Shown here: piece by piece, positions 1 through 26,297 of the stretch
How the letters are laid out: each line of letters opens with the position of its first letter
Numbering within the stretch: position 1 is the first letter of the stretch
Origin: Verrucomicrobiia bacterium
GTDB lineage: Bacteria; Verrucomicrobiota; Verrucomicrobiia; Verrucomicrobiales; DEV007
Length of the DNA stretch: 64,000 nucleotides
Reading direction: 5' to 3'
NCBI GenBank assembly: GCA_030425385.1
Contig: JAUIAH010000010.1
Coordinates: 62,001-126,000, forward strand
Translations under genes and position numbers: made by a program
The notes under the pieces: model-generated
Seen by the model: the letters and a program-made list of their open reading frames with translations, nothing else
What the model was told of the DNA's origin: nothing
Databases searched by the model: none

Positions 1-1
1 A

Positions 2-2467
2 ACAGTCTTCATTCAACTGGCCAAGAAAGCGGCGGCCTTGCGCAACCCAGCCAGTCTCGCCTCATGGCTGTATCGTAGCGCCGTCCTCGAGTCCTTGCAT
101 CTGTTGCGCCGACGCAGCCGGGAAAGGAAGCATCGAGAGCGCCTCATGGAAGCGACAAGATCGCCGGATGAGCACGCTGACAGTTGGCGCGAAGTCATTC
201 CCTGCCTCGACATCGCCTTGAATCAACTCTCACAGAGTGACCGACAGATCATTCTAGCGCGGTTCTATCATGAACACAGCTATAGTGAGATCGCGGCCCA
301 CTTGCAGAAATCGGAAGCGGCTTGCCGCAAACAAATTTCCCGCGCATTGAAGAAGCTCTCGCGCCTCTTGAAAAGACAAGGAGTGCTCGCGTCGACAGCA
401 TTGTTAGCCCAAGGACTCCAGCCCGAACTCGCCGCGGCAAGCCCCGTGGGTCTGGTGGATGTCATCGAGGGACGGGTCGCCGATCTCTCTGGGCACAGCG
501 CGCTGTCGACAGTGAGTGCCTCTCTCATGGCTGCGATCTCCAGCAAGACGATGTTAGTCATCGTGGCCGGACTTTCCGCCGTGGCACCAGTCGTTGCCAG
601 CAAGCGCGAGACCCTGCACGATCAAACCTCGGCACCTGCCGCCTCGTATTCGGTCCTGCCTTCGACCCGTCTCGCCCCCCTTGTGAATGACACTGTCAGT
701 GTTGAGGATATCCTTGCCGCTCTCGGAACAGAGCAGTTGGCGCTCCTCCTGCGTTGGTTGCCTTCGGCCAGCAACGCCGACCTGGAGAGACTCGCCACAA
801 CCCGCCTGTCAATGTTGCAGGTAGAGGGTGTTGCGCTCAACTCTGTTAGCTTCTGGAGTCTTCTCTTTCAACGCTGGGTGACGTTGGATTCCCATGCTGC
901 CCTGACATTTGCCGAGGACTCCAAAAAGACGCTGCGTGGCCATCGCGGACAAGAACTCTTTGATCTGGAAATGATCTTTCTGGCCTGGGCCAAGGCGGCC
1001 CCCGATAAGGCACTGGCGGCTGCCGAGCAGCGCTCCGCACCATTGGTCGTGATCGTGCTCAATGAACTTCAGAACCGCGATCCTTGGAAAGTCATCGAAC
1101 TCAGTAAGCAACTCGATCCTGGCATTGCCTCCTTGATAAATTGGGGAGATCTCTTCGAGACACTGGCCAAGCGTGATCTGACAACCGCCACCGAAGCCGC
1201 TCAAGCCATGCCTCCGTCGCGAAATCAAGATCGCGCGCTCTTCGCCGTCGCCATGGCCACGATGGCATCCGATCCTCAAGCCGGTCTCGCCATGTTAGAG
1301 GGACGTTCGAGGGTTCCACTCCTACAGAAATGGTTGGCGGCCGATTGGGAAGGTGGCTTTCAAGCGATCCAAGCGGAACCGAAGTCTATCGGGAAACTCA
1401 CATTGATGCGTGAGACAGCTGGGGACTATTGGAAGCGCCATTCCGAAAAAGCCAAAGCCTGGGCCTTCGCGATCAAGGATCCCCAACTCCGCCGGGCTGC
1501 TCTATCCGGTCTCGCCGTCGCCGCAGCCGAGAGCGATCCACTCCAAGCCAAAGCCATCTTCGATGCCTTGGGATGGGATGTGCGAGACCCTGACGCGACC
1601 ACGAGTTATGTCTCAGGAGGCTCAGGACAGGTGAGAGGTTCTGTCGAAACACTCGAAAACGCCGCCCAACAGGTGATTACGGCTGTGAGCAAGTCAGACC
1701 GTCACGAAGCGCTGTCCTTGTTAGGCAATGTCAAGGGCATTGGGAACGAGCAACGCCTTCTCGACGTGATCGCCACGCCGTGGATGTCGGAAGATCGCCA
1801 GGGCTTTGAGAAAGCCATCCGCGCGCAGCCTTCCGGGAAGCTCCGCACATCGTTGGCCCGCTGGTATGCGAGTGCGTTAGTGTCTGACAATCCTAACGAA
1901 GCCCTGCAATGGGTGACGGAGAACGCGGCGCTCAGTGAAGAAATCGTGATACAACAGGTGTTCGGGGACTGGCAACAGTCCGATCCTCAAGCAGCAAGAG
2001 AGGCCTACCTGGACCATGAATTCCCCAATAGCGCATGGAAAGACGCCTGCTTTGAATCTGCCTTGAGGACCTCACTCAGTGATCCAGCTGATCTTGCCAA
2101 GCTGCAGGACTGGCTCGGCTCCCAAGCAGATCAATACGATCTCCCTCGGATCCATGAACGTTTGGGAAATGCCCTCGCTGAGCATGATCTTGAGAGTGCT
2201 GCCGCCTGGGTGGATCGCCTCGAACCCTCACAGGCTCGCCAAAGCGCCATCCAAGGCGTAGTCGAACAGCTCTTCAATGGAGAACACGCCAATCCCCAAG
2301 AAACACTCGCTTGGATCGAGCAACTTCCTGACAGTTCCACCCAACAGTTCTGGCTCAATCACCTTGCGAAGCAATGGATAACTACTGACGCCGAGACCGC
2401 CTTCGCCACGCTGCCGAACACCGCTTTGTCTGAACGCAACTTCAATCGCTTAGCTGGGAGGCACTAG
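2..2467 (+). CDS. ECF sigma factor fused to a membrane segment and a C-terminal repeat region (5' end outside window)
   Basis: The frame is open to the left edge, so the N-terminus is missing; the visible VFIQLAKKA matches the end of sigma region 2 in the paralogue at 5916-7838. Counting from the TTG at 38, region 4 with its helix-turn-helix (QSDRQIILARFY, then YSEIAAHLQKSEAACRKQISRALKKL split across two helices) spans residues 58-113. A hydrophobic stretch at about 170-188 could cross the inner membrane. The remaining ~600 residues are imperfect alpha-helical repeats of about 32-38 residues of the form W-A-x-x-D-P-x-A-A-L-x-W-L-x-x-L-P. I infer a membrane-tethered sigma factor with the repeats in the periplasm. 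The next gene starts one base after the stop. Sigma identity is secure; topology and the role of the repeats are inference. Confidence 0.85.
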   Translation, partial: TVFIQLAKKAAALRNPASLASWLYRSAVLESLHLLRRRSRERKHRERLMEATRSPDEHADSWREVIPCLDIALNQLSQSDRQIILARFYHEHSYSEIAAHLQKSEAACRKQISRALKKLSRLLKRQGVLASTALLAQGLQPELAAASPVGLVDVIEGRVADLSGHSALSTVSASLMAAISSKTMLVIVAGLSAVAPVVASKRETLHDQTSAPAASYSVLPSTRLAPLVNDTVSVEDILAALGTEQLALLLRWLPSASNADLERLATTRLSMLQVEGVALNSVSFWSLLFQRWVTLDSHAALTFAEDSKKTLRGHRGQELFDLEMIFLAWAKAAPDKALAAAEQRSAPLVVIVLNELQNRDPWKVIELSKQLDPGIASLINWGDLFETLAKRDLTTATEAAQAMPPSRNQDRALFAVAMATMASDPQAGLAMLEGRSRVPLLQKWLAADWEGGFQAIQAEPKSIGKLTLMRETAGDYWKRHSEKAKAWAFAIKDPQLRRAALSGLAVAAAESDPLQAKAIFDALGWDVRDPDATTSYVSGGSGQVRGSVETLENAAQQVITAVSKSDRHEALSLLGNVKGIGNEQRLLDVIATPWMSEDRQGFEKAIRAQPSGKLRTSLARWYASALVSDNPNEALQWVTENAALSEEIVIQQVFGDWQQSDPQAAREAYLDHEFPNSAWKDACFESALRTSLSDPADLAKLQDWLGSQADQYDLPRIHERLGNALAEHDLESAAAWVDRLEPSQARQSAIQGVVEQLFNGEHANPQETLAWIEQLPDSSTQQFWLNHLAKQWITTDAETAFATLPNTALSERNFNRLAGRH

Positions 2468-2468
2468 C

Positions 2469-4379
2469 ATGTTTTTATCATTGCCTCGCCTCATATTACG
2501 CTTGGTCGCCGCCTGTGTCATTGGATATTCCATCGGTCTTCTCGTGAGACAATGGCCATTAGGAAATCCGACAGAGTCTATCACCGTCACCGAAGAATCA
2601 TCTCGAACCGGCACATCACACCCGACGTCTCGATGGACGGGACTCATGCACCGCTTCCACGAAGGCCTCAGCATCCGTGAACAGCAACAGTTTGTCATGG
2701 CCTGCCAGCATGCGAATCCCTCTGAGCTGAAAGACCTTCTTGATCGTATCGAGTATTTCCGTGATGGCATTCAACACGCCTTCGCTTCCATTGCGCTCAA
2801 GCGATGGCTTGAGGTCGATGCTTCGGGAGCGCTCGCCTACGCCAATCAGCGCGGTGGACAGTGGCCTGGCTTGTGTATGCTGCAGTGGGCCGAAGTCGAT
2901 CTGCCAGCGGCTATTAAGGCGGTTCTAGAATCTCCATCAGCGAATTCCCAAACCAATTCCCGAAGATTCCAGTCAGAACTCGGTCGGAACGTTCGCGGGT
3001 TGCTACTTCTCAAAGTTGCGGAATCAGATCCTCTCGCAGCTCTCGAACTCAGTGACAAGATGCCTCTCACAGGTGCCGAAGCTCATCGGGCTTACAATAT
3101 CATCTTTCAAAGACTCAGCGCAAAGGACCCAAGCATCGCGGCGTCAACGCTCGATGCCGTGAAGGATCGAAATGCTAGGCAGATTGCCATGACCCAAATC
3201 ACCACCGAATGGGGGAAGCGCGATCCTGAGGCCGCGCTCGCGTGGCTACGGAAACAACCAGCATCAGCCATGGGGCTCTTCTCTCTCGGCAACGCTTGGG
3301 CCACTCATGATCCGCAAGCCGTACTTGCCCGGCTCGACGAACTGTCAGAGTACCCTGGAAGTCGTGCCACGCTCCTCGGCACGGCTCTCGCCACGTGGTG
3401 GGAGGACGATCCCACTGCGATGCAGATATGGCTAACAGATGCCGATTTGAATGAGAAAACCGCCCAGCGTGTACAGGCCAATCTCATCACAAAAGTCGCC
3501 GCATCCGACCCTGAAAGTGCCGCGATACTCAACTCCCAGGCAGTGGCCCAAGGGCACCCCTCACAAGAGCACGTGATTTTCCAATCGTGGGCCGAGGAAG
3601 ACCCTCACGGTGTGCTCGATTGGGCAAGCGCCCAGCCCAAAGGCGCCCCGAGAGACGATGGCATGCTCGCTGCCATCAGCGTTCTCAGCAAGCGCGATCC
3701 TGTCGCGATGCTAGAAGAGCTTCCCCTACTCGCCGAGACGATCGACTACTCAGGTGATTGGTGGAAGATGGAGATCGCCGGACCGCTCATGAAGGTTCTC
3801 TCAGCCCGAGGGCAGAAGGCTTCAGAAGACTGGATCAAATCGCTGCCCCCGCCCATTGGGAGAGAATTCTTGGAGGCCTACACGGGTCAATGGCAGTTCC
3901 GTGCCCCAAGTGAAACGCTCGCGTTTCTTCTAGAGCAGCCTCTCAGCGACGACTTGGTGAGCACGGCACAAGGCGTGCTCAGCGCTAAACTCGCCCGAGA
4001 AGATCCAGCCGCGGCAGCAGAAATCGTCACCGCTTTTGAAGACCAGCAAATGCGCGAGATCGGCACGCAGAATCTGATGTCCAGCTGGCTCTCGATTGAC
4101 CCCAATTCTGCGGAGGAATGGACGCTGACCCTCACCGATGCCCCCACCCGCGACAGCGCCCTAGCCATGCTCGCCAATCATGCTGCCGAACAGAATCTCG
4201 ACAAGGCCTTCGCCAAGCAGCTAGCCGATCCCTACGAGCGCCACGATGTCGTACGACAGCTCCTCCAGCGGGTGCACGATCAAGACACCGCCACCATCTA
4301 CGTCGATCAGGCAAACCTCTTAGAGGCAGATCGAGCCGCCCTCCTCTCTGGATGGAGATTTCGAACGAAATCCCCATAG
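2469..4379 (+). CDS. Membrane-anchored repeat protein, partner of the upstream sigma fusion
   Basis: A 636-residue protein with one N-terminal membrane anchor (residues ~6-26) and no cytoplasmic domain. The rest consists of the same helical repeats as the sigma fusion, with motifs such as WGKRDPEAALAWLRKQP, WATHDPQAVLARL and WAEEDPHGVLDWA at roughly 30-40 residue spacing. The ATG lies one base after the upstream TAG stop, so the two genes are probably translationally coupled and made in fixed ratio. I recognise no enzyme motif. The repeat style suggests a solenoid for protein-protein contacts, and the neighbour suggests it senses or titrates something in the periplasm together with the tethered sigma factor; that role is inference. 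Confidence 0.8.
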   Translation: MFLSLPRLILRLVAACVIGYSIGLLVRQWPLGNPTESITVTEESSRTGTSHPTSRWTGLMHRFHEGLSIREQQQFVMACQHANPSELKDLLDRIEYFRDGIQHAFASIALKRWLEVDASGALAYANQRGGQWPGLCMLQWAEVDLPAAIKAVLESPSANSQTNSRRFQSELGRNVRGLLLLKVAESDPLAALELSDKMPLTGAEAHRAYNIIFQRLSAKDPSIAASTLDAVKDRNARQIAMTQITTEWGKRDPEAALAWLRKQPASAMGLFSLGNAWATHDPQAVLARLDELSEYPGSRATLLGTALATWWEDDPTAMQIWLTDADLNEKTAQRVQANLITKVAASDPESAAILNSQAVAQGHPSQEHVIFQSWAEEDPHGVLDWASAQPKGAPRDDGMLAAISVLSKRDPVAMLEELPLLAETIDYSGDWWKMEIAGPLMKVLSARGQKASEDWIKSLPPPIGREFLEAYTGQWQFRAPSETLAFLLEQPLSDDLVSTAQGVLSAKLAREDPAAAAEIVTAFEDQQMREIGTQNLMSSWLSIDPNSAEEWTLTLTDAPTRDSALAMLANHAAEQNLDKAFAKQLADPYERHDVVRQLLQRVHDQDTATIYVDQANLLEADRAALLSGWRFRTKSP

Positions 4380-4756
4380 TGCCTACGACCACATCGCCGG
4401 ATACATCAGCAAGTACAGGGAAACGGCGAAGCCTGCCCCTTGGACTGCGTGCAGCCTGCTGCCGCTTTACCGAATGCAGCCCCGCTGCAAAGGCCACAGC
4501 AGTGGCGCGAAAAGAACCTGGATGGAGGTCAGACCCAGCCCATCCTAACATCGCGCCACATCTTCATCAACATCAATTAGCAAGAGCAGAGCGCATCTCC
4601 CTTGAGAGTCCGCCACTCTCCTTAGCCAACCAGGCCTCAGCACCTGCGGGATCTTGGCGTTTCCAATGCTCGAAGCGATACCGTGCCACTTCACGTGCCT
4701 CTTCCGTATGGTGCATTCGTTGGAGCACCTGAATCACAGTGTCGAATCCATGATAG
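4281..4756. repeat. Direct repeat, intact copy: meeting point of the two convergent operons
   Basis: This segment holds the 3' end of the plus-strand repeat protein, the ~190 bp gap between the convergent genes, and the 3' end of the minus-strand repeat protein. It is repeated in the same orientation at 7901-8278, with high identity outside one ~98 bp deletion. The gap itself (4380-4572) shows no gene. I saw no strong terminator hairpin with a T-run there. Confidence 0.85.
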
Positions 4757-5919
4757 GTATGGTTGGACAGATACTTGAGCGCGGCGTCATGCGACTCCGG
4801 ATAGGGAAGGCGTTCTACCCAGTCGAGTGCGCCTTGCCAATTCTCGCGGGCCAAGCGCTTGGCAATGGCCTCACTCGCATTCTCGTGGTGTCGTCCTGGA
4901 GGAATCGCCTCGATTAATGTCAGAGCTGTATCAACGGGAAACCGATCTGACGCAATGGCCATGGAAAGCCACTGGCCTTGCGTTGCTTCAGGAAGGAGCG
5001 CGGCCGCCTCCACCAGGGCCTGCGCATCGTGCCCGGCAGTCCAGTTGGTGGTAGCGCTAATGCAGCTTCCCTCGGAGACCAGATGCGGATACATCTCTAC
5101 GAAATGACGCATGGCTCCCTCGAGATCGTCTCGCGCCCACAGTCCAATAGCCCTACCAATGCCCTCGGTCACTCCCATCGATGCGATGCCTGCTAGAGCG
5201 GCGTGGGGATCCTGTTCGGCCCAAGCCTCCGAAGCCATGGCAAGAGCCATCTTTCGTGGGAAACCTGCCTCCAGCCGGAGGGCTCGGCGATAGGCTCCCT
5301 CTGGATCAATAGCCGCGTAGCTCTCCATGAGCACCTCGAAATAGCGATTTCTACTCTGTCTCCCTTCAAAGGAATCGACAAGGTCTAAGGCCCTAGCAGG
5401 ATCACGGCGCCCCAACGCCTTAATATAGGCCTCTAATCGGGGATCATGATCCGAAGGCGATTGCTGTAGCATCTCCATGATCTGAGCATCGGTCAATTCA
5501 AGAGAGATCAGGCCAGTGACACTGTCTTGAAATGCTTGAGGAAACCGTGCTAGAGCCGGTTGGAGCACTTCCAATCCACCGAGTTCCTGCAAGCGTTCAC
5601 AAGCAGCTCGAGCGACAAGCTCTCGAAAGTCATCCAACGCCATCGATGACAAACGCTCCAGGAGTTCTTCCGTGTGAGAGCGTGACATGGTGTAAACTTG
5701 GCTAACCAGTGAGGCCGATTCCCCTCGATCCAGATGCCAGACTTGAAGATCCAGCATTCTATCCAGCTCAACGGTGCCCTCATCTGCTCGTTCCAGTTCC
5801 GTTTCGGACGAAGGCGCACCCTTCCCATAACACAATTGCCATGTTCGATAGCCTTGAAACGCCATCACACCCACCAGCACCAAGAATAGAACCGCCCGCC
5901 ACCAGAGTTGCCCTTTCAT
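4573..5919 (-). CDS. Membrane-anchored repeat protein, partner of the minus-strand sigma fusion
   Basis: A 448-residue protein with an N-terminal membrane segment (residues ~8-22: AVLFLVLVGVMAFQG) followed by helical repeats such as WAEQDPHAALAGIASM and LARENWQGALDWVERLP. Its ATG overlaps the stop of the upstream sigma fusion in an ATGA arrangement, so translation is probably coupled. It mirrors the gene at 2469-4379 in position and architecture but is shorter and clearly diverged. The last ~60 codons are duplicated in a decayed copy near 8.1-8.3 kb. No catalytic motif is visible. Function is inferred only from the paired sigma factor. Confidence 0.8.
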   Translation of the reverse strand: MKGQLWWRAVLFLVLVGVMAFQGYRTWQLCYGKGAPSSETELERADEGTVELDRMLDLQVWHLDRGESASLVSQVYTMSRSHTEELLERLSSMALDDFRELVARAACERLQELGGLEVLQPALARFPQAFQDSVTGLISLELTDAQIMEMLQQSPSDHDPRLEAYIKALGRRDPARALDLVDSFEGRQSRNRYFEVLMESYAAIDPEGAYRRALRLEAGFPRKMALAMASEAWAEQDPHAALAGIASMGVTEGIGRAIGLWARDDLEGAMRHFVEMYPHLVSEGSCISATTNWTAGHDAQALVEAAALLPEATQGQWLSMAIASDRFPVDTALTLIEAIPPGRHHENASEAIAKRLARENWQGALDWVERLPYPESHDAALKYLSNHTYHGFDTVIQVLQRMHHTEEAREVARYRFEHWKRQDPAGAEAWLAKESGGLSREMRSALAN

Positions 5920-7838
5920 GGCAATCCTTCCTCCTTTGCCGTGTAGACTGCTCGGGCATCAATGGTGAGATCGCCACGGGTCCGCATGCGCCCCAGAAAG
6001 GCCTCAACGAGTGCATCGCTACCATTACTCTGGAGTAATGACAGCGCTTCCAGTGGCTCATGACGGCGAACGAAGGCGGCCTCCAATAGAAACGCGGACT
6101 GTTCCTCAGGTGCCAATACTTGGCCATATTCCATGACCTCGGCGGCGGTCAATCCCTGCGTCCGCTTCCCGAGTATCGGTGCCCCTGCCAGTCTCACGGA
6201 CCCGTCCTCCGTCTGCGAGATGACCCAATCGAAAGCATCGGAGAACGAATTTCTCGCGAAGACGTCAAGAGCACTGGTCACGGCACGCGTCCTGAAGCTG
6301 GCTTCTCCCACAGCAAGAGCAGCGCGCAACGCCTCATCCTGATTCTCCCTCGCATAGCGCAACATGACCTGGCCAACCGCTTCATAACGTTCTCGGTGAT
6401 CAGAAAGGGTGTTCACCCACTGCCAGGCTTGAACAGGATTCGCCCTCGCCCAGCCATCGACAATCTGGCGGAAGGCACTCCCTCGTTGGATCGGCTCATC
6501 GATCGAGTCTAACAGAGCAATCGCCGCCGATGGATTCTCTTTGGCGACACCCTGCAACAGTTTCGATTGAAGGTCATTGCGAATCCTCGGGGCCACCGGC
6601 AATTCGCGAATCGTGGCGAGCGTTTCTAGCGGGTGCACAAAACCCAAGGAATCGATCACCGCTTCGAGTGCCACCAATTCATGCCCATCATCCCAACCCG
6701 GGCCAAGCTCGCCGATCATTTGGAGAGCTCGATCTTTCGCGGCGTTCAGGTCGACCTTTCCCCAATAGAGAAACACCTCACGACAAAGCCCATCGGCACG
6801 TGCGAGACGTGAAACGGCCACCAGATCGGCCGCCTTTGGAAGATCGCTAGGATGGAGAGCATGAAGGACCTTCAGAAACTGGATCCTCGGTTTAAGGAGA
6901 TCAGGTCTTTTGATGCAGGATTCCAAGGCATGCCGGAAGGCGAGCAGGCTCCTGCTCTGATTCATGCCCCCCCTCTTCGCCAATCCGTCTAGCAGCGAGC
7001 GCCGTTTCTCACTTCGAACCTCTGCAACGCCACTCCCGCTTTCCAACTGAGCCGCGAGCATGTGATTCCCTATTGACTGACACATCACCACAATTCCGCA
7101 TGCGAGCACGCACCGATTCAGCACAGAGACAGGGCACACAGAAACGCTCCCCACTCTGGCAGCACCAATGATCTCGCGGACATCAAGCGGATGTCCACAC
7201 CTGGCAAATTCACTAGACAGACCAAGCGCTAGGGCTCCCACCGAAAGAGTCGTTCCACGCCTTTCTAACATCGCGCGTAATTTCTGAAGTAACCGCTGAC
7301 ACTGTTTCTCACACGCTGCCACGGACTTGCCTGTGATATCAGAAATCTCAGGAAAACTGCGCCCCTCGAAGAATCGCTGGAATAGGAATCGCATTTCTGA
7401 CAGAGTCAGCTGACCGATCACCTCATCCAGTGCCACAAGCGCCGTGTGAGGAAGTGACGGCTCATTCGGTGTTTGTCTCATCGCATTCTCATAAGCTACC
7501 AGTTTCCGCAGATGACGCCGTTCCCGCCGCCGAACCGCACGTGCTTGGTGAGACGTTGCGGTGTAGAGCCAAGGAGCCAACGCCGCATCCTTCCCCGCCA
7601 AACGAGGAGCTTTCTTCGCCAACGCCACAAAGACCTCTTGGCTCACCTCCTGGGCCAACTCTTCCTGCCCTGTGAGGCGAAGGGCGGTGTGGTGGACCAA
7701 GCCTCCATAACGTTCAAGCAAGACCGCCAATGCCCATTCGTCCGCCCCATCCGCGAAGCGTCTGAGCAGCACACAATCTGGAGGATCATCTCGGTTCACA
7801 CCAAGAACCTGCCAGAATACCCTGAATCCGGACAACAC
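5916..7838 (-). CDS. ECF sigma factor fused to a membrane segment and a C-terminal repeat region (complete)
   Basis: A 640-residue protein from a GTG at 7838; a second GTG at 7799 (product beginning MNRDDPPDCVLLRRF) gives a more usual ECF start and is the likelier one. From the first GTG, sigma region 2 covers residues ~35-105 (LLERYGGLVHHTALRLTG, VSQEVFVALAKKAPRLAG) and region 4 covers ~140-192 (FPEISDITGKSVAACEKQ). A hydrophobic segment at ~236-256 follows, then about 380 residues of weak helical repeats (WARANPVQAWQWVNTL, YARENQDEALRAALA). The order sigma - membrane segment - repeats equals that of the first gene, so this is a second complete copy of the same design on the opposite strand. 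It is coupled by ATGA overlap to the repeat protein downstream. Periplasmic placement of the repeats is inference. Confidence 0.85.
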   Translation of the reverse strand: MLSGFRVFWQVLGVNRDDPPDCVLLRRFADGADEWALAVLLERYGGLVHHTALRLTGQEELAQEVSQEVFVALAKKAPRLAGKDAALAPWLYTATSHQARAVRRRERRHLRKLVAYENAMRQTPNEPSLPHTALVALDEVIGQLTLSEMRFLFQRFFEGRSFPEISDITGKSVAACEKQCQRLLQKLRAMLERRGTTLSVGALALGLSSEFARCGHPLDVREIIGAARVGSVSVCPVSVLNRCVLACGIVVMCQSIGNHMLAAQLESGSGVAEVRSEKRRSLLDGLAKRGGMNQSRSLLAFRHALESCIKRPDLLKPRIQFLKVLHALHPSDLPKAADLVAVSRLARADGLCREVFLYWGKVDLNAAKDRALQMIGELGPGWDDGHELVALEAVIDSLGFVHPLETLATIRELPVAPRIRNDLQSKLLQGVAKENPSAAIALLDSIDEPIQRGSAFRQIVDGWARANPVQAWQWVNTLSDHRERYEAVGQVMLRYARENQDEALRAALAVGEASFRTRAVTSALDVFARNSFSDAFDWVISQTEDGSVRLAGAPILGKRTQGLTAAEVMEYGQVLAPEEQSAFLLEAAFVRRHEPLEALSLLQSNGSDALVEAFLGRMRTRGDLTIDARAVYTAKEEGLP

Positions 7839-7900
7839 CCACTAAATTCATGCCTCAAAGGCACCGAAAACGCCCTGCTTGTGCGCGCAGAATGCGGAAT

Positions 7901-8278
7901 CAAGACCCCGCCACCACCCATGTCGATCAGGCAAACCTCTTAGAAGCAGATCGAGCCACTCTCCGCCCGTTGGATTGCGTGCAGCCGCCGCCCCCCGGAC
8001 TGCCCCGCTGCAAAGGCCACAGCGTTAGCGCGAAAAGAACCTGGATGGAGGTCAAACCCAACCAATCCTAACATCGCGCCACCTCTTCATCAACATCAAT
8101 CAGCGAGAGCAGCACGCATCTCCCTTGAGAGTCCGCCACTCTCCTTCGCCAACCAGGCCTCAGCGCCTGCGGGATCTTGACGTTTCCAAGCTCGAAGCGA
8201 TACCGTGCCACTTCACGTGTCTCTTCCGTATCGTGCATATGTTGGAGCACCTGAATCACGGTGTCGAATCCATGATAG
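7901..8278. pseudogene. Decayed second copy of the convergent gene tails (duplication scar)
   Basis: The sequence follows 4281-4756 almost base for base, starting at the shared CAAGAC.CCGCCACCA and ending at the shared GTCGAATCCATGATAG. It lacks about 98 bp that include the stop region of the plus-strand gene. On the minus strand it still encodes a recognisable tail (VLQHMHDTEETREVARYRFE), but the frame shifts after RYRFE compared with RYRFEHWKRQDPAGAEAW in the intact gene. Neither tail is attached to the rest of its gene. It is best read as what remains of a second tandem copy of the locus, or as the product of a duplication that inserted or bracketed the minus-strand operon. Confidence 0.85.
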
Positions 8279-8315
8279 TCGTTCCGCCAACTGAGAAGTC
8301 GTGCCGTGCCTCACT

Positions 8316-8953
8316 TCCCCTTCGTTTCCTTCTGTTTCCATCTGTCCTCAATACCCGTTCCCTTTCTCGGGTTACAGCAGCGGTGGAACAGAAGAAATCA
8401 AAGGAACCGAAGGCTAGATTGCTTGGGTTGGACAGCGTTAGAGACTAATCTAAGAAGCCAAGATTTGGACCACAGATGGTCACAAATCAAGAGTGGTGCT
8501 GCGGGATCTGCTATCTGTGATAATCGGCGTTATCTGTGGTTTACTGAACTGCCGCGGATTGACCCGTTCCCTTTCTCGGGTTACAGCAGCGGTGGAACAG
8601 AAGAAATCAAAGGAACCGAAGGCTAGATTGCTTGGGTTGGACAGCGTTAGAGGCTGAGCTAGGAAGCCAAGATTTGGACCACAGATGACACAGATCGTCA
8701 CAGATCAAGAGTGGTGCTGCGGGATCTGCTATCTGTGATTATCGGCGTTATCTGTGGTTTACTGAACTGCCGCGGCTTGACCCGTTCCCTTCCTCGGGCA
8801 ACAGCAGCGGTGGAACAGAAGGAATCAAAGAAGACGAGGGCTAGATTGCTAGGGTTGGACAGCGTTAGAGGCTAGGCTAGGAAGCCAAAGTTTGGACCAC
8901 AGATGACACAGATCGTCACAGATTAAGAGTGGTGCTGCGAGATCTGTTATCGG
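8316..8953. repeat. Three tandem ~210 bp non-coding repeat units with internal inverted repeats
   Basis: Units begin at 8354, 8563 and 8781 with CCCGTTCCCTT(T/C)CTCGG, giving periods of 209 and 218 bp; the 9 bp difference is an extra ACACAGATC. Each unit carries GGAACAGAAGAAATCAAAGG, a GGTTGGACAGCGTTAGAG block, and a right half in which ACCACAGATG is mirrored by ATCTGTGGT after ~70-85 bp, so the RNA or single-stranded DNA could fold. The stretch 8316-8340 resembles the reverse complement of the GGAACAGAAG block, which suggests a truncated inverted copy at the left edge. No open frame is convincing. It resembles a miniature or REP-like element family, but no terminal inverted repeat with target duplication was proven. 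Confidence 0.8.
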
Positions 8954-9386
8954 TGGTTAAATAGGTGCCTCGAGATTGGCATCCTCGTTTCGCGCCAACA
9001 GTTCGGCGATGTCTCCGCAGCATCCAGGATGGCTTCAGGGTGACTCATGAGATCGCTTCGAAAGCGGCGTGGGCTGCAGTCCTGCAAACTTTGATTTCAT
9101 CCCCAGTGCTGCAAGTAGGCGTTCTTCCACTGATATCCGTCACACGCGCTCGGTTTCTGCCCTTAAAGAAGCCGTCACGCAGCCACTCGGCCGACGATTT
9201 CGCATGTCTGTTGGACGATTGGAAGCAGGCACATTGGGATTATCGCAAGTATGGGAGGGTTTGCAAATGAATCCCAACTGACACGTTTCGAGAAAGTCCA
9301 TGGGTCCCGTCGCTCGGTCGTCACGCTCGCCACGCGGCAGGAGGCACTTTTGTAAACGAATCCGTTCGGCGACTCCGTCTTTCTTG
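8954..9386. other. Gap of about 430 bp before the third sigma factor
   Basis: I see no convincing gene here. Short open frames exist (for example on the plus strand at 9069-9281, ending ...LQMNPN), but none shows a recognisable family or a start with a ribosome binding site. They could be chance or the end of a decayed gene. The promoter of the sigma factor that follows should lie in the last ~150 bp, but I could not pick reliable -35/-10 boxes. Confidence 0.4.
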
Positions 9387-9902
9387 ATGATGAACCAGCG
9401 CAAACGGCATCTCAGCCATCTCTACGATCTGCACGCGGAGGCCGTTTACGGCTTCCTTTTGCAGGTGGCTCAAGTGCCCGAAGATGCTCGCGATCTACTA
9501 CAAGAAGTGTTTCTGCGAGTCTCACAGAATCTGAAGCGCGTTCAAGGAGCGCGATCGCCGCGCGCCTATATCCTTAAGATTTCCTGGCACCTTCACCTCG
9601 ACCACAGTCGCCATCGACAGGCCCAGCAGCGTCGCGAACGACGTTTCATGGAGGAGCAACCGAAGATCTACGAAATCACCGAGGATCCCGATGCGCAGGC
9701 CTTTCGGCATCGGCTTCAGGAGATCATGGCCGCATTGCCACAGGAACAACGGGCCGTGGTTCATCTCCATCTTTGGGAGGATCTGACCTTTGATCGCATC
9801 GGAGAAACGCTCGGCATCAGTCCAAACACCGCTTCGAGTCGTTACCGATACGCCCTCACGAAATTGCGCCATCATATGAACACACTTCGCCACCAACTCT
9901 AA
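9387..9902 (+). CDS. RNA polymerase ECF-type sigma factor (stand-alone)
   Basis: A protein of about 171 residues from the ATG at 9387 (a second ATG follows at once at 9390). Region 2 is clear near the start (LYDLHAEAVYGFLLQV, ARDLLQEVFLRVSQNL, AYILKISWHLHLDHSRHR). Region 4 lies near residues 115-165 (LPQEQRAVVHLHLWEDL, FDRIGETLGISPNTASSRY). Length and domain order are normal for the family, unlike the two fused sigma factors to the left. An in-frame extension to 9300 has no family support. The next gene, 19 bp downstream, encodes a membrane-anchored protein that may be its regulator. The stop TAA sits in CTCTAAC, the recurring pentamer of this window. Confidence 0.9.
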   Translation: MMNQRKRHLSHLYDLHAEAVYGFLLQVAQVPEDARDLLQEVFLRVSQNLKRVQGARSPRAYILKISWHLHLDHSRHRQAQQRRERRFMEEQPKIYEITEDPDAQAFRHRLQEIMAALPQEQRAVVHLHLWEDLTFDRIGETLGISPNTASSRYRYALTKLRHHMNTLRHQL

Positions 9903-9921
9903 CTTTGATCCTAGTATAACT

Positions 9922-11025
9922 ATGCGAGATCTTGAGAAACTGATGCGGGCCACGCCTCTGCGCAAACCCGATCCAAGCTGGAAGGCGATCATCCTGAGCC
10001 GGAGTGTGGCTATCGACAGCGGATGGTCAATAGGTGCCAAAGCCGTTTCCTCTCTTGTCTTCGGAGGATGCCTCGCCTGGGGACTCACTAGTTGGCTCTG
10101 GCAAGATCCAGAGTCTAAGTCTCAAGACTCTCCAAGAGCGCATGAGACGAGAAAGGGCGTATCCACAGGATTGGTGTTAGAGAGGGGCCCAAGAGGGACA
10201 AGCCTGGATTGGGACGCTGCCTTGCTGAGCGAAGACGACGAGCGCTTCGATGAATGGCAGGATCCAAGGATCGATGTTGCCTTAGCCGATGTGCATGAGG
10301 TTCTCACCAAGTTCAAAGAAGCCACCTTGCGACGGCTACATTTTCCCGAAATCGTCCCACTCAAGCGTATTGGAATCACGGCGGAAGCCATAGCTGCAAG
10401 GGCGCATGTTGCCCTCGCAAGCGATGGTGAAGAGGAAGCGGCGCAGGCCTGGCAGGATTGCATGACTTTGTTTCGACTGACGCACCTTCTGCAACAGCGT
10501 CAGACCATGGACGCGAAGAAGCTTGCGGTGGGTATTGCGGGTATTGTCATCTTTCCCATCGGAAAAGGCTGGCGCGATCATCGCTGGACAGAAGCGCAAC
10601 TGGCATCATTGCAGGGCCACTTGTTAGGCCTGCGATCCTTGGAGGCAATCGCTGAAGTGGCTGCCCAGCAATCGGAAGCCTTCGAGATCTTCCAGGATAC
10701 ATGGGACCCGAAGTATCAGGTCTGGGTCGGGCTCACGAATGAAGATTGGCTCGCCCTGGGCGAGAAAGATCATTGGCTGCATCGCGTGATCACTGATTCG
10801 ATGGATGTTGATGGACGTGTCCGGCAGACGGCAATCATTCTCGCCTTGGAGCGCTATCACCGGCAGCATAGCGAACTGCCTGAGCAGATCGAGGACATCC
10901 TCTCAGAAATGCCCTACAATCCATGGACAGGAGCCCCTTTTGTCTATGAGAGGACGGGGCCTGATGAAGCACGCCTTGATGGATCGGAAGGATCCTGGAT
11001 GGCGTTCAGGCCCCACCACAACTAA
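9922..11025 (+). CDS. Membrane-anchored protein downstream of ECF sigma factor, possible anti-sigma partner
   Basis: A 367-residue protein with ~40 polar N-terminal residues, one membrane segment at about 43-60 (VSSLVFGGCLAWGLTSWL), and a large C-terminal part predicted outside the membrane. The topology (short cytoplasmic N-terminus, single span, long extracytoplasmic region) and the position 19 bp after an ECF gene are those of an anti-sigma factor, but no zinc-binding HxxxCxxC motif is visible at the N-terminus. The C-terminal part has a stretch seen in PVC exported proteins: a helix (RQTAIILALERYHRQH), then LPEQIEDIL, then NPWTGAPFVYER. A functional link to the sigma factor is inference. 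Confidence 0.65.
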   Translation: MRDLEKLMRATPLRKPDPSWKAIILSRSVAIDSGWSIGAKAVSSLVFGGCLAWGLTSWLWQDPESKSQDSPRAHETRKGVSTGLVLERGPRGTSLDWDAALLSEDDERFDEWQDPRIDVALADVHEVLTKFKEATLRRLHFPEIVPLKRIGITAEAIAARAHVALASDGEEEAAQAWQDCMTLFRLTHLLQQRQTMDAKKLAVGIAGIVIFPIGKGWRDHRWTEAQLASLQGHLLGLRSLEAIAEVAAQQSEAFEIFQDTWDPKYQVWVGLTNEDWLALGEKDHWLHRVITDSMDVDGRVRQTAIILALERYHRQHSELPEQIEDILSEMPYNPWTGAPFVYERTGPDEARLDGSEGSWMAFRPHHN

Positions 11026-11052
11026 CATTCCACCAGACACCTCCTTGAGCAC

Positions 11053-11463
11053 CTACATACATACTTCAGGTTGCTCCTGATTGTTTGTCTTGTGGCGGTA
11101 TTGCCAGAGTGCCGCTGGAATCACTCCGAAGAGGTAGGCGAGCATGTCGAGCCAGCCGAAATGGGTGCCGAGGGCTCGAGAAACGAGTTGTGACAGAGAG
11201 TTAGGATGTTGGGCGAGGTTGGCGGGAATGCCAGTCAGTTGGAAGACTTCAATCGCGGCGACAGCCAGAAGCGCCATGGTGGTGCGGGAAGAGATTGGTT
11301 GACTAGGCCAGAGGAAACCGAGTCCCACGTAAAGCATCGTCGCGTAGAGCGCGTCCCCAAGATACTTGTCCCAAAGAATGTTGCCGATCGGGTAGAGTCT
11401 GGAAAGGAGGCCGACTGCAATGATTAGGATAAGTGCAAGTAGATAGCGTGTGCGAACGGACAT
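11053..11463 (-). CDS. DUF2809-like small membrane protein
   Basis: A 136-residue protein with about four hydrophobic segments. The pattern YLLALILIIAVGLLSR, then YLGDALYATMLYVGLGFL, then an E-x-F-Q-L motif and a final LDMLAYLFGVIPAAL segment fits the DUF2809 family, whose biochemical role is not known. The start lies 6 bp after the stop of the upstream minus-strand gene, so both probably share an mRNA. It converges with the anti-sigma candidate to its left, with a 27 bp gap. Confidence 0.75.
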   Translation of the reverse strand: MSVRTRYLLALILIIAVGLLSRLYPIGNILWDKYLGDALYATMLYVGLGFLWPSQPISSRTTMALLAVAAIEVFQLTGIPANLAQHPNSLSQLVSRALGTHFGWLDMLAYLFGVIPAALWQYRHKTNNQEQPEVCM

Positions 11464-11469
11464 CGTTCT

Positions 11470-11985
11470 TTAGGGGTAGGTGTTCTCTCTCACGGAATGA
11501 TAGGGTATCTTGCTAGTTTCGATATCATTCCGCCAGTCTTCGTTGATGGTCCGTGTCGGGAAGCGGAACCCGTTGGTTTGATAGACCAAGATACATTCAT
11601 CAACGAAGCCGACACTGATGAGATAGTAAGTTCTGTCCGTTGACCTAGAGTCGATCGACGCCATGACCCGACCCGTTAGTGGGTGTAGGTTCTGTGCTGC
11701 GATGCGGTGCTGGAGGAAGATGGTGTCGACAAGGTAGATGACACCATACAGTGTCAAGACAGTGCACAATAGTGGGCGTGATGGTTTCCCAAGTAGACCA
11801 ATGAACGTTAGCAACACGAGAAGAAGATAGAAGAAGAGGTTATGCCCATAGAGAACGAGGAAGACTGGCAGAGCGGCGATGAGGAGGAGCGTGAAGACGC
11901 ATCCACAATATCGAGAGCAGTCGATGTGATTGAAACCCACTTTATCTAGTCCGTAAGTTTGCCATATGTCTTTACTTTGCCACAC
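11470..11985 (-). CDS. Hypothetical membrane protein
   Basis: A 171-residue protein with two to three hydrophobic segments (residues ~28-90: VFTLLLIAALPVFLVLYG, FFYLLLVLLTFIGLLG, TVLTLYGVIYLVDTIF) followed by an ~80-residue soluble tail rich in charged residues. I do not recognise the family. It is the first gene of a two-gene minus-strand unit with the DUF2809-like gene. Its local base composition looks more AT-rich than the neighbouring genes, which could hint at separate ancestry, though I did not measure this. Confidence 0.6.
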   Translation of the reverse strand: MWQSKDIWQTYGLDKVGFNHIDCSRYCGCVFTLLLIAALPVFLVLYGHNLFFYLLLVLLTFIGLLGKPSRPLLCTVLTLYGVIYLVDTIFLQHRIAAQNLHPLTGRVMASIDSRSTDRTYYLISVGFVDECILVYQTNGFRFPTRTINEDWRNDIETSKIPYHSVRENTYP

Positions 11986-12053
11986 AAAGCAAAGATGGCA
12001 AGTGAAGGTTCTCGTGCCCCTTCAGGGCTGTGGCATAGGGGTCACTCTCTAGA

Positions 12054-12073
12054 CCAAAGGCTGAAGCCCTTGG
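12054..12073. repeat. Short near-palindrome in the intergenic gap
   Basis: The 20 bp starting CCAAAGGCTGAAGCCCTTGG is an imperfect inverted repeat. A partly related block, CCCTTCAGGGCTG, lies ~30 bp to the left. Together they look like a degraded copy of a dispersed intergenic palindrome, or a bidirectional terminator for the minus-strand pair. The rest of the ~190 bp gap (11986-12179) shows no gene. Confidence 0.35.
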
Positions 12074-12179
12074 CTGTGTTCTCTAGGACTTTCGGCCCCA
12101 GCACTTAATCTATGTTGAAGCGCTCAGTCTGGGCACGCAACACGCCGCGACCGCCTCCCGTTCATAGGGTTTCTTCTCG

Positions 12180-14381
12180 GTGCGCTATCGCCTCGTTCCA
12201 ATCCTTGTCTTCCTCGTCTGCAGGTTGCCGTTGGTGGCTTGGGCGGGCGAGGTCCCGGAGCCGATCAGCTTCGTCGATGATGTCTTGCCCGTTCTGAGCA
12301 AGGCGGGCTGCAGCGGTTCGGCCTGCCATTCTAAGCCAGCTGGACAGAATGGCTTCAAGCTGTCTGTCTTTGCCTACGATCCGGAGGCGGACTACGCGTC
12401 CATTGTCCATGATCGGCAAGGACGCCGCCTTTCACTCAACGCGCCTGAGCAGAGCCTGCTCTTGCTGAAGGCAACCCAAGCCGTCCCTCACGAAGGCGCC
12501 CAGCGATTCCCGGTCGATTCTAAAGCCTATGCTATCGTGCGGCAATGGATCGCGGAAGGTGCAGTGTATGCGCACCCAGACGATGCTCCACTGGAAAGCA
12601 TTTCGTTGAGCCCTGACAAAGTCACTTTCACTAACGGAGATGCTGAAGTGGCTTTTGAAGTCATCGCCCATTATGCCAATGGCAGGACACGCACGGTGAC
12701 GCAGCTCGCGAGTTTTGAGACGAACAAGGAAGCGATCGTGGAGATCGGCTCCGATGGCCTTGCGCGTTTGTCGGATCACCCCGGCGAAGCCATTGTCGTG
12801 GCGCAGTTTCTGGGCGAGGTAGCCACCGCTCGCGTGATGATTCCGCGTTCGACTTCCAATCACTTGAAAACGCAATTGGCGTCCAAGCCACGCGCGAATT
12901 TCATCGATACGCTTGCCTACCAGCGGTTCGAAGAGTTGGGCATCGAGCCCTCGCCGCGCTGCTCGGACAGCACGTTCTTGCGCCGCGTTTCTCTGGACCT
13001 GATCGGGCGTCTGCCAGAGCCTGAAGAGGTCCGCGCGTTTCTCCAAGATCACGCACCAGACAAACGCGCAACCCTGGTGGACCGTTTGTTAGAGTCCCCT
13101 CTCTATGCCGATCATTGGGCGGTGAAATGGGCGGATCTCCTGCGTCCCAATCCCGATCGCGCGGGAGTGAAGAGCGTGTATGTGCTGGATCAATGGCTCC
13201 GGAAGGTGTTTCGAGAGAATTGGCCCATGGATCGCTTTGCCCGAGAGGTGCTGACCGCCCAGGGGAGCACCCATCGGCATGGCCCCACCGTGGTCTATCG
13301 TGATCGACGCACCCCGGAAGACCTCACCTCGATGATCAGCCAGGTATTTCTCGGTGTTCGGTTAGAGTGCGCGCGTTGTCATCATCATCCCAATGAGAAA
13401 TGGAGTCAGGAGGACTACTACCAGATGGCGGGATTCTTTGCGCAGCTCAAGCGGAAGGGCAAAGGCGTATCCCCACCCATTTCCGGGGGGTGGGAGGTCT
13501 TCTATCACGCGCCGGGTGGCACGGTGAAGCACCCAGTGACGAACGTTGCCTTGCCGCCCAAAGCCCCTGACGGCCCGCTCATGCCTGCAGATCTCAACGG
13601 GGCCGACCCGCGTGCGTGGTTTGCCAAATGGCTTACGGAACCCCACAATCCTTTCTTTGCCAAAGCGATCGTCAATCGCGTGTGGGGCGAACTCATGGGG
13701 CGCGGCATCGTGCATCCTGTGGATGATTTCCGCGAGACGAATCCACCAAGCAATCCGGAATTGTTAGACGCCCTCGCAGAACACTTTGCCGCGCTCAGCT
13801 TCGATCACAAGAAGCTGCTCCGATTGGTGGTCATGTCAGAGCTGTATCAACAGGACTCGCTTCCCACCGCCTCCAATCGCGGGGATCTTGAGAATTTCTC
13901 CCGTTCCTATCGGCGACGGCTCCCAGCGGAAGTTCTCGCGGACGCTCTCGCTGACATCACTCAGATCCCTAACACTTTTGAGGGACTCGCAGAAGGTTCC
14001 CGCGCGACGCAGGTGTGGAATTTCAAGATCGCGTCTGACACTCTAGATGCCTTTGGTCGGCCTGACTCGAGCAGTGACTGCCCCTGCGAGCGCAATCTTT
14101 CCACCAGCGTCGTGCAAGCCCTGCATTTGATGAACGCGGAGTCGTTGCAAGCCAAGCTCAGCGCGTCCGCGGGACGGGTCGCCGCCCTCACCGAGAGCTC
14201 GCGGACACCGGAAGCGATCATTGAGGAACTCTACCTCCTCGCCTATAGCCGCTACCCTTCCCCAGCCGAGCGCGCCTTGGCCCTCGCAGAATTCCAACGC
14301 GAGGGGTCGGACCGTCAAACCGCCACGGAAGACATCCTCTGGGCGCTGCTGAACTCGGCTGAGTTTGTCTTCAATCACTAA
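12180..14381 (+). CDS. Exported DUF1549/DUF1553 protein with N-terminal cytochrome-like and Big2-like domains
   Basis: A 733-residue protein with a GTG start and a signal peptide (residues 1-22, cut after AWA). An N-terminal planctomycete-cytochrome-like motif follows: GCSGSACHSK has the spacing C-x4-C-H and is followed by QNGFKLSVFAYDP, as in this family. Residues ~135-225 form a Big2-like beta domain (ISLSPDKVTFTNGD). The DUF1549 region (FIDTLAYQRFEELGIEPS, RRVSLDLIGRLPEPEEV) and the DUF1553 region (FFAKAIVNRVWGELMGRGIV) complete the usual order. Such proteins occur with DUF1501 partners in PVC bacteria and are suspected to act on polymers outside the cytoplasm; the reaction is not established. 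Whether the C-x4-CH motif binds heme is uncertain. Confidence 0.9.
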   Translation: MRYRLVPILVFLVCRLPLVAWAGEVPEPISFVDDVLPVLSKAGCSGSACHSKPAGQNGFKLSVFAYDPEADYASIVHDRQGRRLSLNAPEQSLLLLKATQAVPHEGAQRFPVDSKAYAIVRQWIAEGAVYAHPDDAPLESISLSPDKVTFTNGDAEVAFEVIAHYANGRTRTVTQLASFETNKEAIVEIGSDGLARLSDHPGEAIVVAQFLGEVATARVMIPRSTSNHLKTQLASKPRANFIDTLAYQRFEELGIEPSPRCSDSTFLRRVSLDLIGRLPEPEEVRAFLQDHAPDKRATLVDRLLESPLYADHWAVKWADLLRPNPDRAGVKSVYVLDQWLRKVFRENWPMDRFAREVLTAQGSTHRHGPTVVYRDRRTPEDLTSMISQVFLGVRLECARCHHHPNEKWSQEDYYQMAGFFAQLKRKGKGVSPPISGGWEVFYHAPGGTVKHPVTNVALPPKAPDGPLMPADLNGADPRAWFAKWLTEPHNPFFAKAIVNRVWGELMGRGIVHPVDDFRETNPPSNPELLDALAEHFAALSFDHKKLLRLVVMSELYQQDSLPTASNRGDLENFSRSYRRRLPAEVLADALADITQIPNTFEGLAEGSRATQVWNFKIASDTLDAFGRPDSSSDCPCERNLSTSVVQALHLMNAESLQAKLSASAGRVAALTESSRTPEAIIEELYLLAYSRYPSPAERALALAEFQREGSDRQTATEDILWALLNSAEFVFNH

Positions 14382-23803: not shown

Positions 23804-24850
23804 ATGAGAGCCGTCCGGAAACGACTCACCGGCTTCCAACGGGTCGTCCTGGCTACCTGGGTCGCGCTCGTGATCCTTATCTTCATGGGCGCCATTGTCC
23901 GGGCGACAGGCGCCGGGCTCGGTTGCCCGGATTGGCCCACTTGCTGGGGCAATTGGATCCCCCCCACATCCGTGGATCAGGTCGATTTCGAGAAGATCGA
24001 TCTGGAACGCTTCCGCAAGAAAGCCGAGCGCCTCGGTAATGATCCTAACACCCTCACCGAGGACTTTCTCCGTCAACAGTTCAATCCCGTCCACGTGTGG
24101 ACAGAGTACGTGAACCGCCTCACGAGCATGCCTCTGGGGATCTTCTCGCTCTGGCTCGCGGCTTTGGGCGTGGGCCAATGGCGCCGTCGCCGACCCGTAG
24201 TGGCCATCAGCGCCTGGCTTTCGCTCGCCATCGTTCTCATCAATGCATGGCTCGGGAGGATGGTCGTCCTGAGTGGGCTCCGCCCCGGGATCATCACCCT
24301 TCACATGGCGCTTGCCATCCTCATGCTCTGTTTGTTAGTCTACGCTGGCTGGCGTGGATGTGAGGATCCTTGGCGTCTCCGCATGCGACCTGACCATGAT
24401 CAACACAGGCGCCGAGTCTATCTCTTCGTCATCCTGCTAGCCTTTCTCACCGTCTTCGAAGGCCTGATGGGATCTCAAGTGCGCGAGATGACGGACGCGC
24501 TCGCCAAACGCTACGCTGATATGCCGCGCGCGCACTGGACGGCAGAATTAGAGCACTCGTGGATGTATCTCGTGCATCGCAGCTTCTCGTGGCTCGTCCT
24601 CGGCGCAGCGATTGGGTTCTATCTCAGTGCTCAGAGAGCCCTCACCAAAGGGTGCCGCTGGTTGGAGAAGCTCATTCTCGGCCTCATCCTCGCCCAGATG
24701 TTTCTCGGATTGATCCTCGCCAACGTCGGCATCCTCGCGATCGCCCAGATCTTCCACATCGGCCTGTCGTCGATTCTTGTCAGTGCCCTCGCCCTTTGGA
24801 TCCTTGGGAATCGCCATTCCCGCAAAGACATTGCGTCCTCACCAATCTAG
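23804..24850 (+). CDS. ctaA: Heme A synthase, CtaA/Cox15 family
   Basis: A 348-residue integral membrane protein with seven to eight hydrophobic segments. It has the family hallmarks: FMGAIVRATGAGLGCPDWPTC near the start (read as two adjoining pieces, MGAIVRATGAGLGCP and DWPTC), an EYVNRL motif with conserved Glu, a helix with IITLHMALA, and VHRSFSW and IFHIGLSS, whose histidines bind heme in this family. It converts heme O to heme A for cytochrome oxidase. The ATG at 23804 is 28 bp after the bactofilin stop; longer frames lack family support. No oxidase subunit genes are in the window. Confidence 0.92.
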   Translation: MRAVRKRLTGFQRVVLATWVALVILIFMGAIVRATGAGLGCPDWPTCWGNWIPPTSVDQVDFEKIDLERFRKKAERLGNDPNTLTEDFLRQQFNPVHVWTEYVNRLTSMPLGIFSLWLAALGVGQWRRRRPVVAISAWLSLAIVLINAWLGRMVVLSGLRPGIITLHMALAILMLCLLVYAGWRGCEDPWRLRMRPDHDQHRRRVYLFVILLAFLTVFEGLMGSQVREMTDALAKRYADMPRAHWTAELEHSWMYLVHRSFSWLVLGAAIGFYLSAQRALTKGCRWLEKLILGLILAQMFLGLILANVGILAIAQIFHIGLSSILVSALALWILGNRHSRKDIASSPI

Positions 24851-24873
24851 ATGCGAGCCTAACAAAAGCCGCT

Positions 24874-25599
24874 TCAGGAGTGGCGACGAACGACTCGGGG
24901 CCAGGTTGTTTCGAGTTCTGTGAGGAGTTTCTCAAGCGCCGCCCTCTCTGCTTTCTTGCGAGCACGTCGCATGGCTTCTTCATCACCCCATGCAGTTGCG
25001 AGCCCACGTTGATCCGCACGTTCTTCCAAGACGGCATAGAGGTATCCCGTTCGCGTGTCCATGATCAGAGCGGAAGCGGTCGAGATCGCCTTGAACGATT
25101 TCGTCGGTGCCAACCCTAACGAAATGGTTGTGAGAGGTTTGAGCACATCCCGATCTTCGAAATGCGTATCGAAGGTGTAGAGCACCATCATGTCCGTGTG
25201 CAGTTTCGCACCTGCGTTCCGCAACTCGAGGTCTGAGAGCAACTGCGAAGGCAAGAGCATCCGGTTGATGCGCACGACATCCGCGACCCCTTTCATCTTT
25301 GCCAATCGCTCAAGATGCGCGTCGTCAGCCACGTCCTCCGTGGTGACCACGCAATAACGGCCTTCACCGAAGCCTCGCGTCTCGTCGTTCCGGTAGCCGC
25401 TGCCCTGAACGCGCACCACCGCAAGGTGGGCGGGAAACCTCGCGGCTGCTCGTGCCTGATACGCCTTCTTTAGCGAAGGATCTGTGAAGGTCGTGAAGTC
25501 AGCCGGTCCGCCGGGGGTGACGTAGGACGCACAGGAGACTCCCACGACAAAGACCATCGCGCTCAGCGCGATCCAACTCAAACTGTTGAGAAGGTTCAT
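24874..25599 (-). CDS. Lipoprotein, hypothetical
   Basis: A 241-residue protein with a lipoprotein signal ending VVGVSC (candidate lipidated Cys at residue 23). The mature part is alpha/beta in character with a lysine/arginine-rich C-terminal helix (EEAMRRARKKAERAALEKLL). Recognisable pieces such as VQGSGYRNDETRGFGEG recur in exported proteins of unknown function in PVC genomes as far as I remember, but I cannot name the family. It converges with ctaA (23 bp gap) and diverges from the small exported protein to the right. Confidence 0.65.
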   Translation of the reverse strand: MNLLNSLSWIALSAMVFVVGVSCASYVTPGGPADFTTFTDPSLKKAYQARAAARFPAHLAVVRVQGSGYRNDETRGFGEGRYCVVTTEDVADDAHLERLAKMKGVADVVRINRMLLPSQLLSDLELRNAGAKLHTDMMVLYTFDTHFEDRDVLKPLTTISLGLAPTKSFKAISTASALIMDTRTGYLYAVLEERADQRGLATAWGDEEAMRRARKKAERAALEKLLTELETTWPRVVRRHS

Positions 25600-26278: not shown

Positions 26279-26297
26279 CCCACGAGCTGCTAACGAA

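Follow-up and report, generated by a model that had tools for sequence, protein, structure and literature searches.

The 64,000-nucleotide stretch analysed here (the window; contig JAUIAH010000010.1 of a Verrucomicrobiia bacterium, positions 62,001–126,000 of the forward strand) contains a pair of direct repeats on either side of a minus-strand operon consisting of an extracytoplasmic function (ECF)-type sigma gene and a second gene. On balance, we favour the view that this repeat is the remnant of a tandem duplication of a 3.62-kb unit, the second copy of which was lost beyond its first 380 bp. The convergent plus-strand operon, likewise composed of an ECF-type sigma gene and a second gene, lies between repeats of its own, derived from a neighbouring FAH gene. 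Below, the genome to which the window belongs is referred to as G000 and its contig carrying the window as C5; G001, G002 and G003 are congeners.

The repeat copies occupy positions 4279–4756 (478 bp) and 7899–8278 (380 bp) of the window, in the same orientation and with identical internal order. Local alignment of window 4151–4800 with 7831–8330 yields 348 matches, 32 mismatches (91.6% identity) and 98 gap columns, made up of one gap of 90 nt (4345–4434 have no counterpart in copy 2) and smaller ones of 1, 4, 2 and 1 nt. The alignment score is 523.5, the maximum among 200 shuffles being 32.5. An independent repeat search of the window recovers the same segments (families D2, D4 and D5), and across the 8.0-Mb assembly the full 478-bp segment has just two sites, a third one, upstream of the plus-strand operon, being partial. 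Copy 1 is located where the two convergent operons meet. In copy 2, a 1-nt deletion shifts the frame of the minus-gene remnant, the stop codon of which is retained. Thus, the direct repeat of the junction segment, first noticed in a sequence-only reading of the window, is real, with a score far above shuffles, and its limits are corrected here to the coordinates given above. The deletion of ~98 bp and the frameshift described in that reading are both present, except that the deletion measures 90 nt and the remaining 8 nt are small gaps. The copies were also said to flank the minus-strand operon exactly; they do so nearly: 184 bp at the 3′ end of the operon's second gene belong to the left copy, and the right copy sets in 61 bp upstream of the sigma start codon.

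The spacing of the repeat copies on the left side, 3620 bp, is unit-sized, and the repeat borders delimit a unit (4279–7898) that holds the minus-strand operon once. As this unit runs from inside the plus-strand gene through the minus-strand operon, the 3′ ends of both convergent operons are expected in the repeat, and both are seen there. Moreover, because the repeat includes the 3′ end of the minus-strand operon itself, a resident minus-strand operon must have existed, and tandem duplication of 4279–7898 followed by loss of the second body is the simplest explanation. According to this route, which we infer from the layout, the unit of about 3.62 kb, comprising the tail of the plus-strand operon, the junction and the complete minus-strand sigma operon, would have been duplicated head to tail. 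The operon adjoining the junction would have been kept and the second unit would have lost all past its first 380 bp, the resulting stub then decaying by 8% divergence, the 90-nt deletion and the frameshift. The earlier suggestion that an extra copy of the whole locus was made and then lost gives the best fit for the minus-strand operon and the junction, with the restriction that at most 101 nt (4279–4379) of the plus-strand operon's second gene belong to the unit. The other suggestion, that the minus-strand operon arose with the duplication, fits less well, since the repeat contains the 3′ end of that operon's own second gene. Descent of the minus-strand operon from a recent copy of the plus-strand one was considered and rejected: the sigma parts are about 36–40% identical at the protein level, a divergence far too old for scars of 85–92% identity.

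Several points weigh against the tandem route. Remains of a second operon body are not recognisable in 8279–9300, where neither DNA nor translated comparison gave anything significant, so that the stub is the sole sign of the lost copy; this absence is not decisive, because a lost body leaves nothing. No strain with a two-operon intermediate or with the empty state was found. Moreover, insertion of a circle carrying the junction by one crossover would yield an identical final layout. In favour of the route, comparison of the two minus-gene 3′ ends gives 4/2/7 differences at the three codon positions, a weak hint that both ends were once coding; the bias is, however, slight.

The bracketing account of the sequence-only reading proved incomplete: the plus-strand operon is bracketed too, with one flank outside the window, and the pattern recurs elsewhere. 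In a whole-genome search, the third site of the segment was found at C5:61662–61755 (85% identity) and C5:61241–61267 (96%), with order and orientation kept. These pieces sit in and just past a gene of the FAH hydrolase family (PF01557), directly upstream of the plus-strand operon. The operon is preceded by the intact FAH gene and followed by a copy of the FAH 3′ region from which 394 internal nt are missing (4381–4502), and the repeat arms (94 + 27 bp) lie 42 bp ahead of the sigma start and 2 bp past the last stop. Since copy 2 contains the tail of the FAH scar, the scar precedes the duplication around the minus-strand operon. It is also more diverged than the repeat pair (85% versus 91.6%). 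In the favoured scenario, the plus-strand operon would thus have been placed earlier, directly behind the FAH gene, leaving a copy of the FAH 3′ region on its far side, and both events would be part of a wider turnover in this lineage, with extended ECF-sigma operons coming and going at hot spots beside stable genes and copies of the flanking genes staying behind. A genome-wide dispersed repeat as the source of the FAH-like part of the junction was rejected, as its 27-base core, allowing up to 3 mismatches, occurs at 3 places in 8.0 Mb.

Of the three congeners, only G003 has FAH and the gene at window 12180, which we take to be of the DUF1549 type, on one contig, with 8.1 kb between them compared with 12.5 kb in G000. 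The cargo behind FAH in G003 is a 2149-aa Rhs gene located between 124-bp, 97.6% identical copies of the FAH 3′ end (L089 5389–13518), and the bracket ends about 95 bp before the next conserved gene. Between G000 and G003, the DNA of the FAH region is about 71% identical; given the 97.6% identity of the copies, the FAH duplication in G003 took place long after the split and independently of that in G000. The gene behind FAH codes for a TonB receptor in G001, a phosphate transporter (PHO4) in G002 and the Rhs protein in G003. The place behind the FAH gene is a hot spot. There is no clean empty site for the C5 locus among the three congeners, all of which have other genes behind FAH. Near position 13010 of L089, an apparent tRNA 3′ end can be made out by eye.

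Recurrence was assessed on 83 pieces (2.15 Mb) of the genomes G000, G003, G011 and G037, in which 91 extended ECF genes were identified. A gene was counted as bracketed if the 600 bp upstream of its start matched directly (≥60 bits) within 12 kb past its stop, a rule set after the list of repeat pairs had been seen. The test set comprised 80 extended ECF genes (11 of the 91 were dropped because of short flanks) and 732 other open reading frames (ORFs) of ≥300 aa. Direct repeats bracket seven of the 80 extended ECF-sigma genes and six of the 732 others (Fisher p=7e-5); without the two C5 loci that prompted the idea, the counts are 5/78 and 6/732 (p=0.002). Inverted downstream matches in the same test were absent from both groups (0 sigma and 0 other genes). 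By genome, sigma versus other genes, the brackets number 4/23 versus 3/491 in G000, 2/37 versus 1/137 in G003, 1/14 versus 2/72 in G011 and 0/6 versus 0/32 in G037. Permutation at the level of 21 repeat events places seven around sigma genes where 2.2 are expected (P=3e-5). Most of this enrichment stems from G000: for the relatives without it, the counts are 3/57 versus 3/241 (p=0.09) and, by event, three of seven where 2.0 are expected (P=0.20). The link of the scars to sigma operons is therefore likely in G000 and unproven in general. The scars may instead be a sign of general instability in the accessory regions of these genomes, without any particular connection to sigma operons, a view that is compatible with either route and to which we give somewhat less than an even chance. 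The G003 Rhs locus bears the same scar without a sigma gene, another bracket in G000 surrounds genes of nucleotide-sugar type (C55:33639/38124), and the enrichment in the relatives alone is weak; the enrichment across the four genomes, with and without the C5 loci and at the event level, argues the opposite.

The recurring brackets differ in how closely they fit. On contig 47 of G000, a 108-bp repeat of 91.7% identity encloses the sigma gene, the left arm ending 99 bp ahead of the start and the right arm beginning 11 bp past the stop. The right arm consists of the 3′ end of a convergent gene; translated, the left arm still gives the same peptide end. In the congener G002, this neighbour gene and the genes upstream of it are syntenic, its 3′ end is present once and the sigma gene is absent; a different gene follows. 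For the other neighbour of the contig-47 sigma gene, synteny is not conserved in the loci seen. On contig 649 of G003, the arms of the 138-bp repeat (89.9%) are 137 bp away from the sigma start on the left and 20 bp away from the stop of the partner gene on the right, and the right arm is the 3′ end of a convergent reading frame. Looser brackets were found on G000 contig 55 (Rhs-like arm pieces, 80%), on G003 contig 17 (9 kb between the arms) and on G011 contig 144, where the arms are parts of a tyrosine recombinase gene. As their arms are Rhs-like or recombinase pieces, two of the seven brackets (contig 55 and G011 contig 144) may be of another kind. Three further details were noted. An extended sigma gene lies between partial and complete tyrosine recombinase genes (L285 3575–4212 and 10526–11207). 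Positions 24800–38300 of G000 contig 55 contain a partly duplicated nucleotide-sugar-type cluster (types assigned by eye) with its own 159-bp bracket. At about position 13000 of L248, the frame to the right of a sigma operon has an in-frame stop in ordinary-looking sequence, possibly a frame break or a special codon.

Instead of being duplicated in place, the operon may have arrived as foreign or episomal DNA. For instance, a single crossover with a flank-carrying circle or homology-assisted illegitimate joining could have inserted it, the flank being duplicated in the same step and no second operon copy ever being present. For the minus-strand operon we consider this unlikely: with 184 bp of its own second gene inside the repeat, that 3′ end would have had to be resident beforehand. 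Insertion is the best fit for the plus-strand operon and for the contig-47 and contig-649 loci; at the latter two an arm adjoins the operon on each side, and one of the arms extends into the neighbouring reading frame. Direct repeats of target sequence that bracket cargo are variable in length (94 + 27 bp at the plus-strand operon, 108 on contig 47, 138 on contig 649 and 124 at the G003 Rhs gene). Furthermore, the G003 Rhs cargo lies between its FAH 3′-end copies, close paralogs of the bracketed sigma genes are absent from the sampled set (32–48% for the best match), and the pattern is in print for restriction-modification genes. No recombinase was detected among the C5 proteins tested, which speaks against insertion and also against an integrative element with attachment sites, G011 contig 144 being the exception. 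A transposon with target-site duplication does not fit either: the repeats measure about 94 to 478 bp, and no transposase family was recognised among six proteins tested. Inverted repeats of ≥25 nt in window 1–14000 amount to one chance-like pair. A broader and doubtful proposal is that extended ECF-sigma operons in this lineage behave as mobile cassettes without a recombinase of their own, spreading by insertion with long target duplication at the ends of stable genes, which would help to explain congener counts of 1, 2, 25 and >50; each insertion or tandem duplication would set a foreign flank 40–340 bp upstream of the sigma start and might thereby supply a new promoter. An assembly or binning artefact is highly improbable even for a draft genome in 74 contigs, because the copies are 8% diverged (32 mismatched positions, in addition to indels) and are flanked by unrelated sequences, whereas assembly duplicates are expected to be near identical, and the locus is interior to a 197-kb contig.

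Gain or loss of the sigma pair between strains, as had been proposed from the sequence, is plausible and was not observed: a strain that lacks the minus-strand operon and carries a single repeat copy was not found, the operon's second gene having no ortholog in 56 relatives and the sole syntenic congener (G003) having different cargo. Deletion of the operon by recombination between the repeats is possible too, and weak on paper. As the copies are 8% diverged and share no exact run longer than 32 bp, deletion of this kind would probably be slow. Turnover is strongly evidenced between species, by the copy numbers. With E-values up to 1e-12, matches to the sigma part of the minus-strand gene number 25 in G000, at least 52 in G003, 22 in G011, 15 in G037, one in G001 and two in G002; in G003, 72 matches are found with E-values up to 1e-8. 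Any sigma-part match is present in 21 of 57 genomes, G000 included.

The features of the two convergent operons are collected in the table. In the Pfam comparison, the minus-strand sigma protein reaches the cut-off for PF04542 and falls slightly below it for PF08281, and the in-window part of the plus-strand one reaches it for both PF08281 and PF04545. Judged by these domains, both sigma genes fit the ECF definition, with Sigma70 regions 2 and 4 and without regions 1 and 3.

Features at the junction of the two convergent operons (window coordinates unless marked C5)
Feature	Position	Strand	Remarks
ECF-type sigma gene with long C-terminal extension, 889 aa	1..2467	+	start at C5:61798, 203 bases ahead of the window
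Second gene of plus-strand operon, 636 aa	2469..4379	+	no Pfam match
Repeat copy 1	4279..4756	+	101 nt from the end of the plus-strand second gene (to 4379), scar derived from FAH, bridge between the operons, 184 bp from the end of the minus-strand second gene
FAH-derived piece, 27 bp	4381..4407	+	96% identical to the interior of the FAH-family gene, C5:61241-61267
FAH-derived piece	4410..4502	+	85% identical to the last FAH codons and post-stop sequence, C5:61662-61755
Second gene of minus-strand operon, 448 aa	4573..5919	-	no Pfam match
ECF-type sigma gene with C-terminal extension, 640 aa	5916..7838	-	Sigma70_r2, weak Sigma70_r4_2
Spacer between minus-strand sigma start codon and copy 2, 60 bp	7839..7898		probable right end of the duplicated unit 4279-7898, from alignment coordinates
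Repeat copy 2, decayed	7899..8278	+	arranged as copy 1, with 91.6% identity; 90-nt deletion; minus-gene remnant frameshifted by 1 nt

The second genes of both operons have no orthologs in 56 relatives (best identity 24–28%). That of the minus-strand operon is predicted to fold into successive helices, the N-terminal one being long and hydrophobic (single-sequence model, mean predicted local distance difference test score 70). Promoter and terminator scans of 4250–8400 gave no excess over shuffles, and the minus-strand sigma protein has no match on plasmids. Directly to the right of the decayed copy 2, a 218-bp sequence is present in 2.8 tandem copies (91% matches; window 8353–8959), with no further site in the 1.27 Mb of G000 searched. 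A third sigma gene of ECF type (200 aa) follows with a second gene at window 9300–11025. The bridge segment 4507–4551 resembles the 3′ end of this third operon's second gene (44 bp, 75%; score 31, whereas 500 shuffles reach at most 27; E about 0.1 for 2.15 Mb), a suggestive similarity that was not used here. Elsewhere in the window, 35600–45900 holds about 10 kb of diverged internal repeats, apparently a long repetitive coding sequence.

The 91 extended genes are diverse, with a median best mutual identity of 40%. A hydrophobic stretch of 19 residues (mean ≥1.6) is present in 74 of them, mostly near residues 220–290, and a same-strand ORF of ≥200 aa follows 51 of the 81 genes with enough flank. 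The predicted features suggest that the family may comprise sigma factors tethered to the membrane, with a helical-repeat domain facing outward and a partner anchored in the membrane. The family can be compared with ECF sigma factors that carry C-terminal extensions, such as ECF41, ECF42 and others described in passages of PMC8103513. As in those groups, sigma regions 2 and 4 are followed by a long extension; compared with what these passages describe, most extensions here have a hydrophobic segment soon after the sigma domains and many of the genes are accompanied by a second gene.

Some bacteria have dozens of ECF-sigma genes that are lacking in close relatives, and what is at stake is the route by which these genes multiply. 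Taken alone, the locus is an ordinary duplication stub. Collectively, the scars look like footprints of the gain and loss of the family. If they are footprints of its multiplication, the route and rate could be read from genome sequences, and the predictions (a single target copy in empty strains, circles and junction-borne promoters) would be testable.

A limited literature search found no report of long target duplication for sigma operons. Insertion with long target duplication was reportedly recognised in the restriction-modification genes of Helicobacter pylori by Nobusato et al. 2000. Such insertion is described for Helicobacter restriction-modification genes in passages of PMC1643837, PMC3031569, PMC4978471 and PMC2869330. 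As far as these passages go, the likeness consists in a gene unit between variable-length, target-derived direct repeats, in an apparent lack of a transposon signature and in a family with fast turnover. By contrast, the cargo here consists of ECF-sigma operons and one Rhs gene, the phylum is Verrucomicrobiota, no empty-site strain was found for C5 and the repeat of the minus-strand operon includes the operon's own 3′ end. A similar pattern is described in Arabidopsis by Woodhouse et al. 2010 (PMC2869330), where transposed genes have flanking direct repeats and circles arising from tandem-repeat recombination were proposed. According to the relevant passages, there too non-transposon genes of particular fast-moving families lie between direct repeats of a genic target; that organism is a eukaryote and the target site was compared directly in a sister species, whereas here this is possible for one neighbour gene (contig 47) only. 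Known loci that swap C-terminal tips within a gene share the fast turnover and a proposed circle recombination, and the congener cargo at the C5 place is an Rhs gene; unlike in those loci, it is whole operons that lie behind a neighbour gene here. Activation of acquired genes by tandem duplications that arise through illegitimate joining is also described, in a passage of PMC11111574. The favoured tandem duplication with loss of one copy finally recalls bacterial merodiploidy. The merodiploids in the passages of PMC3784515 span about 100 to 900 kb and are recent, and in comparison with them the present unit is small (3.6 kb) and old; yet in both, a unit is arranged head to tail, one functional copy is kept and the other is reduced to a stub.

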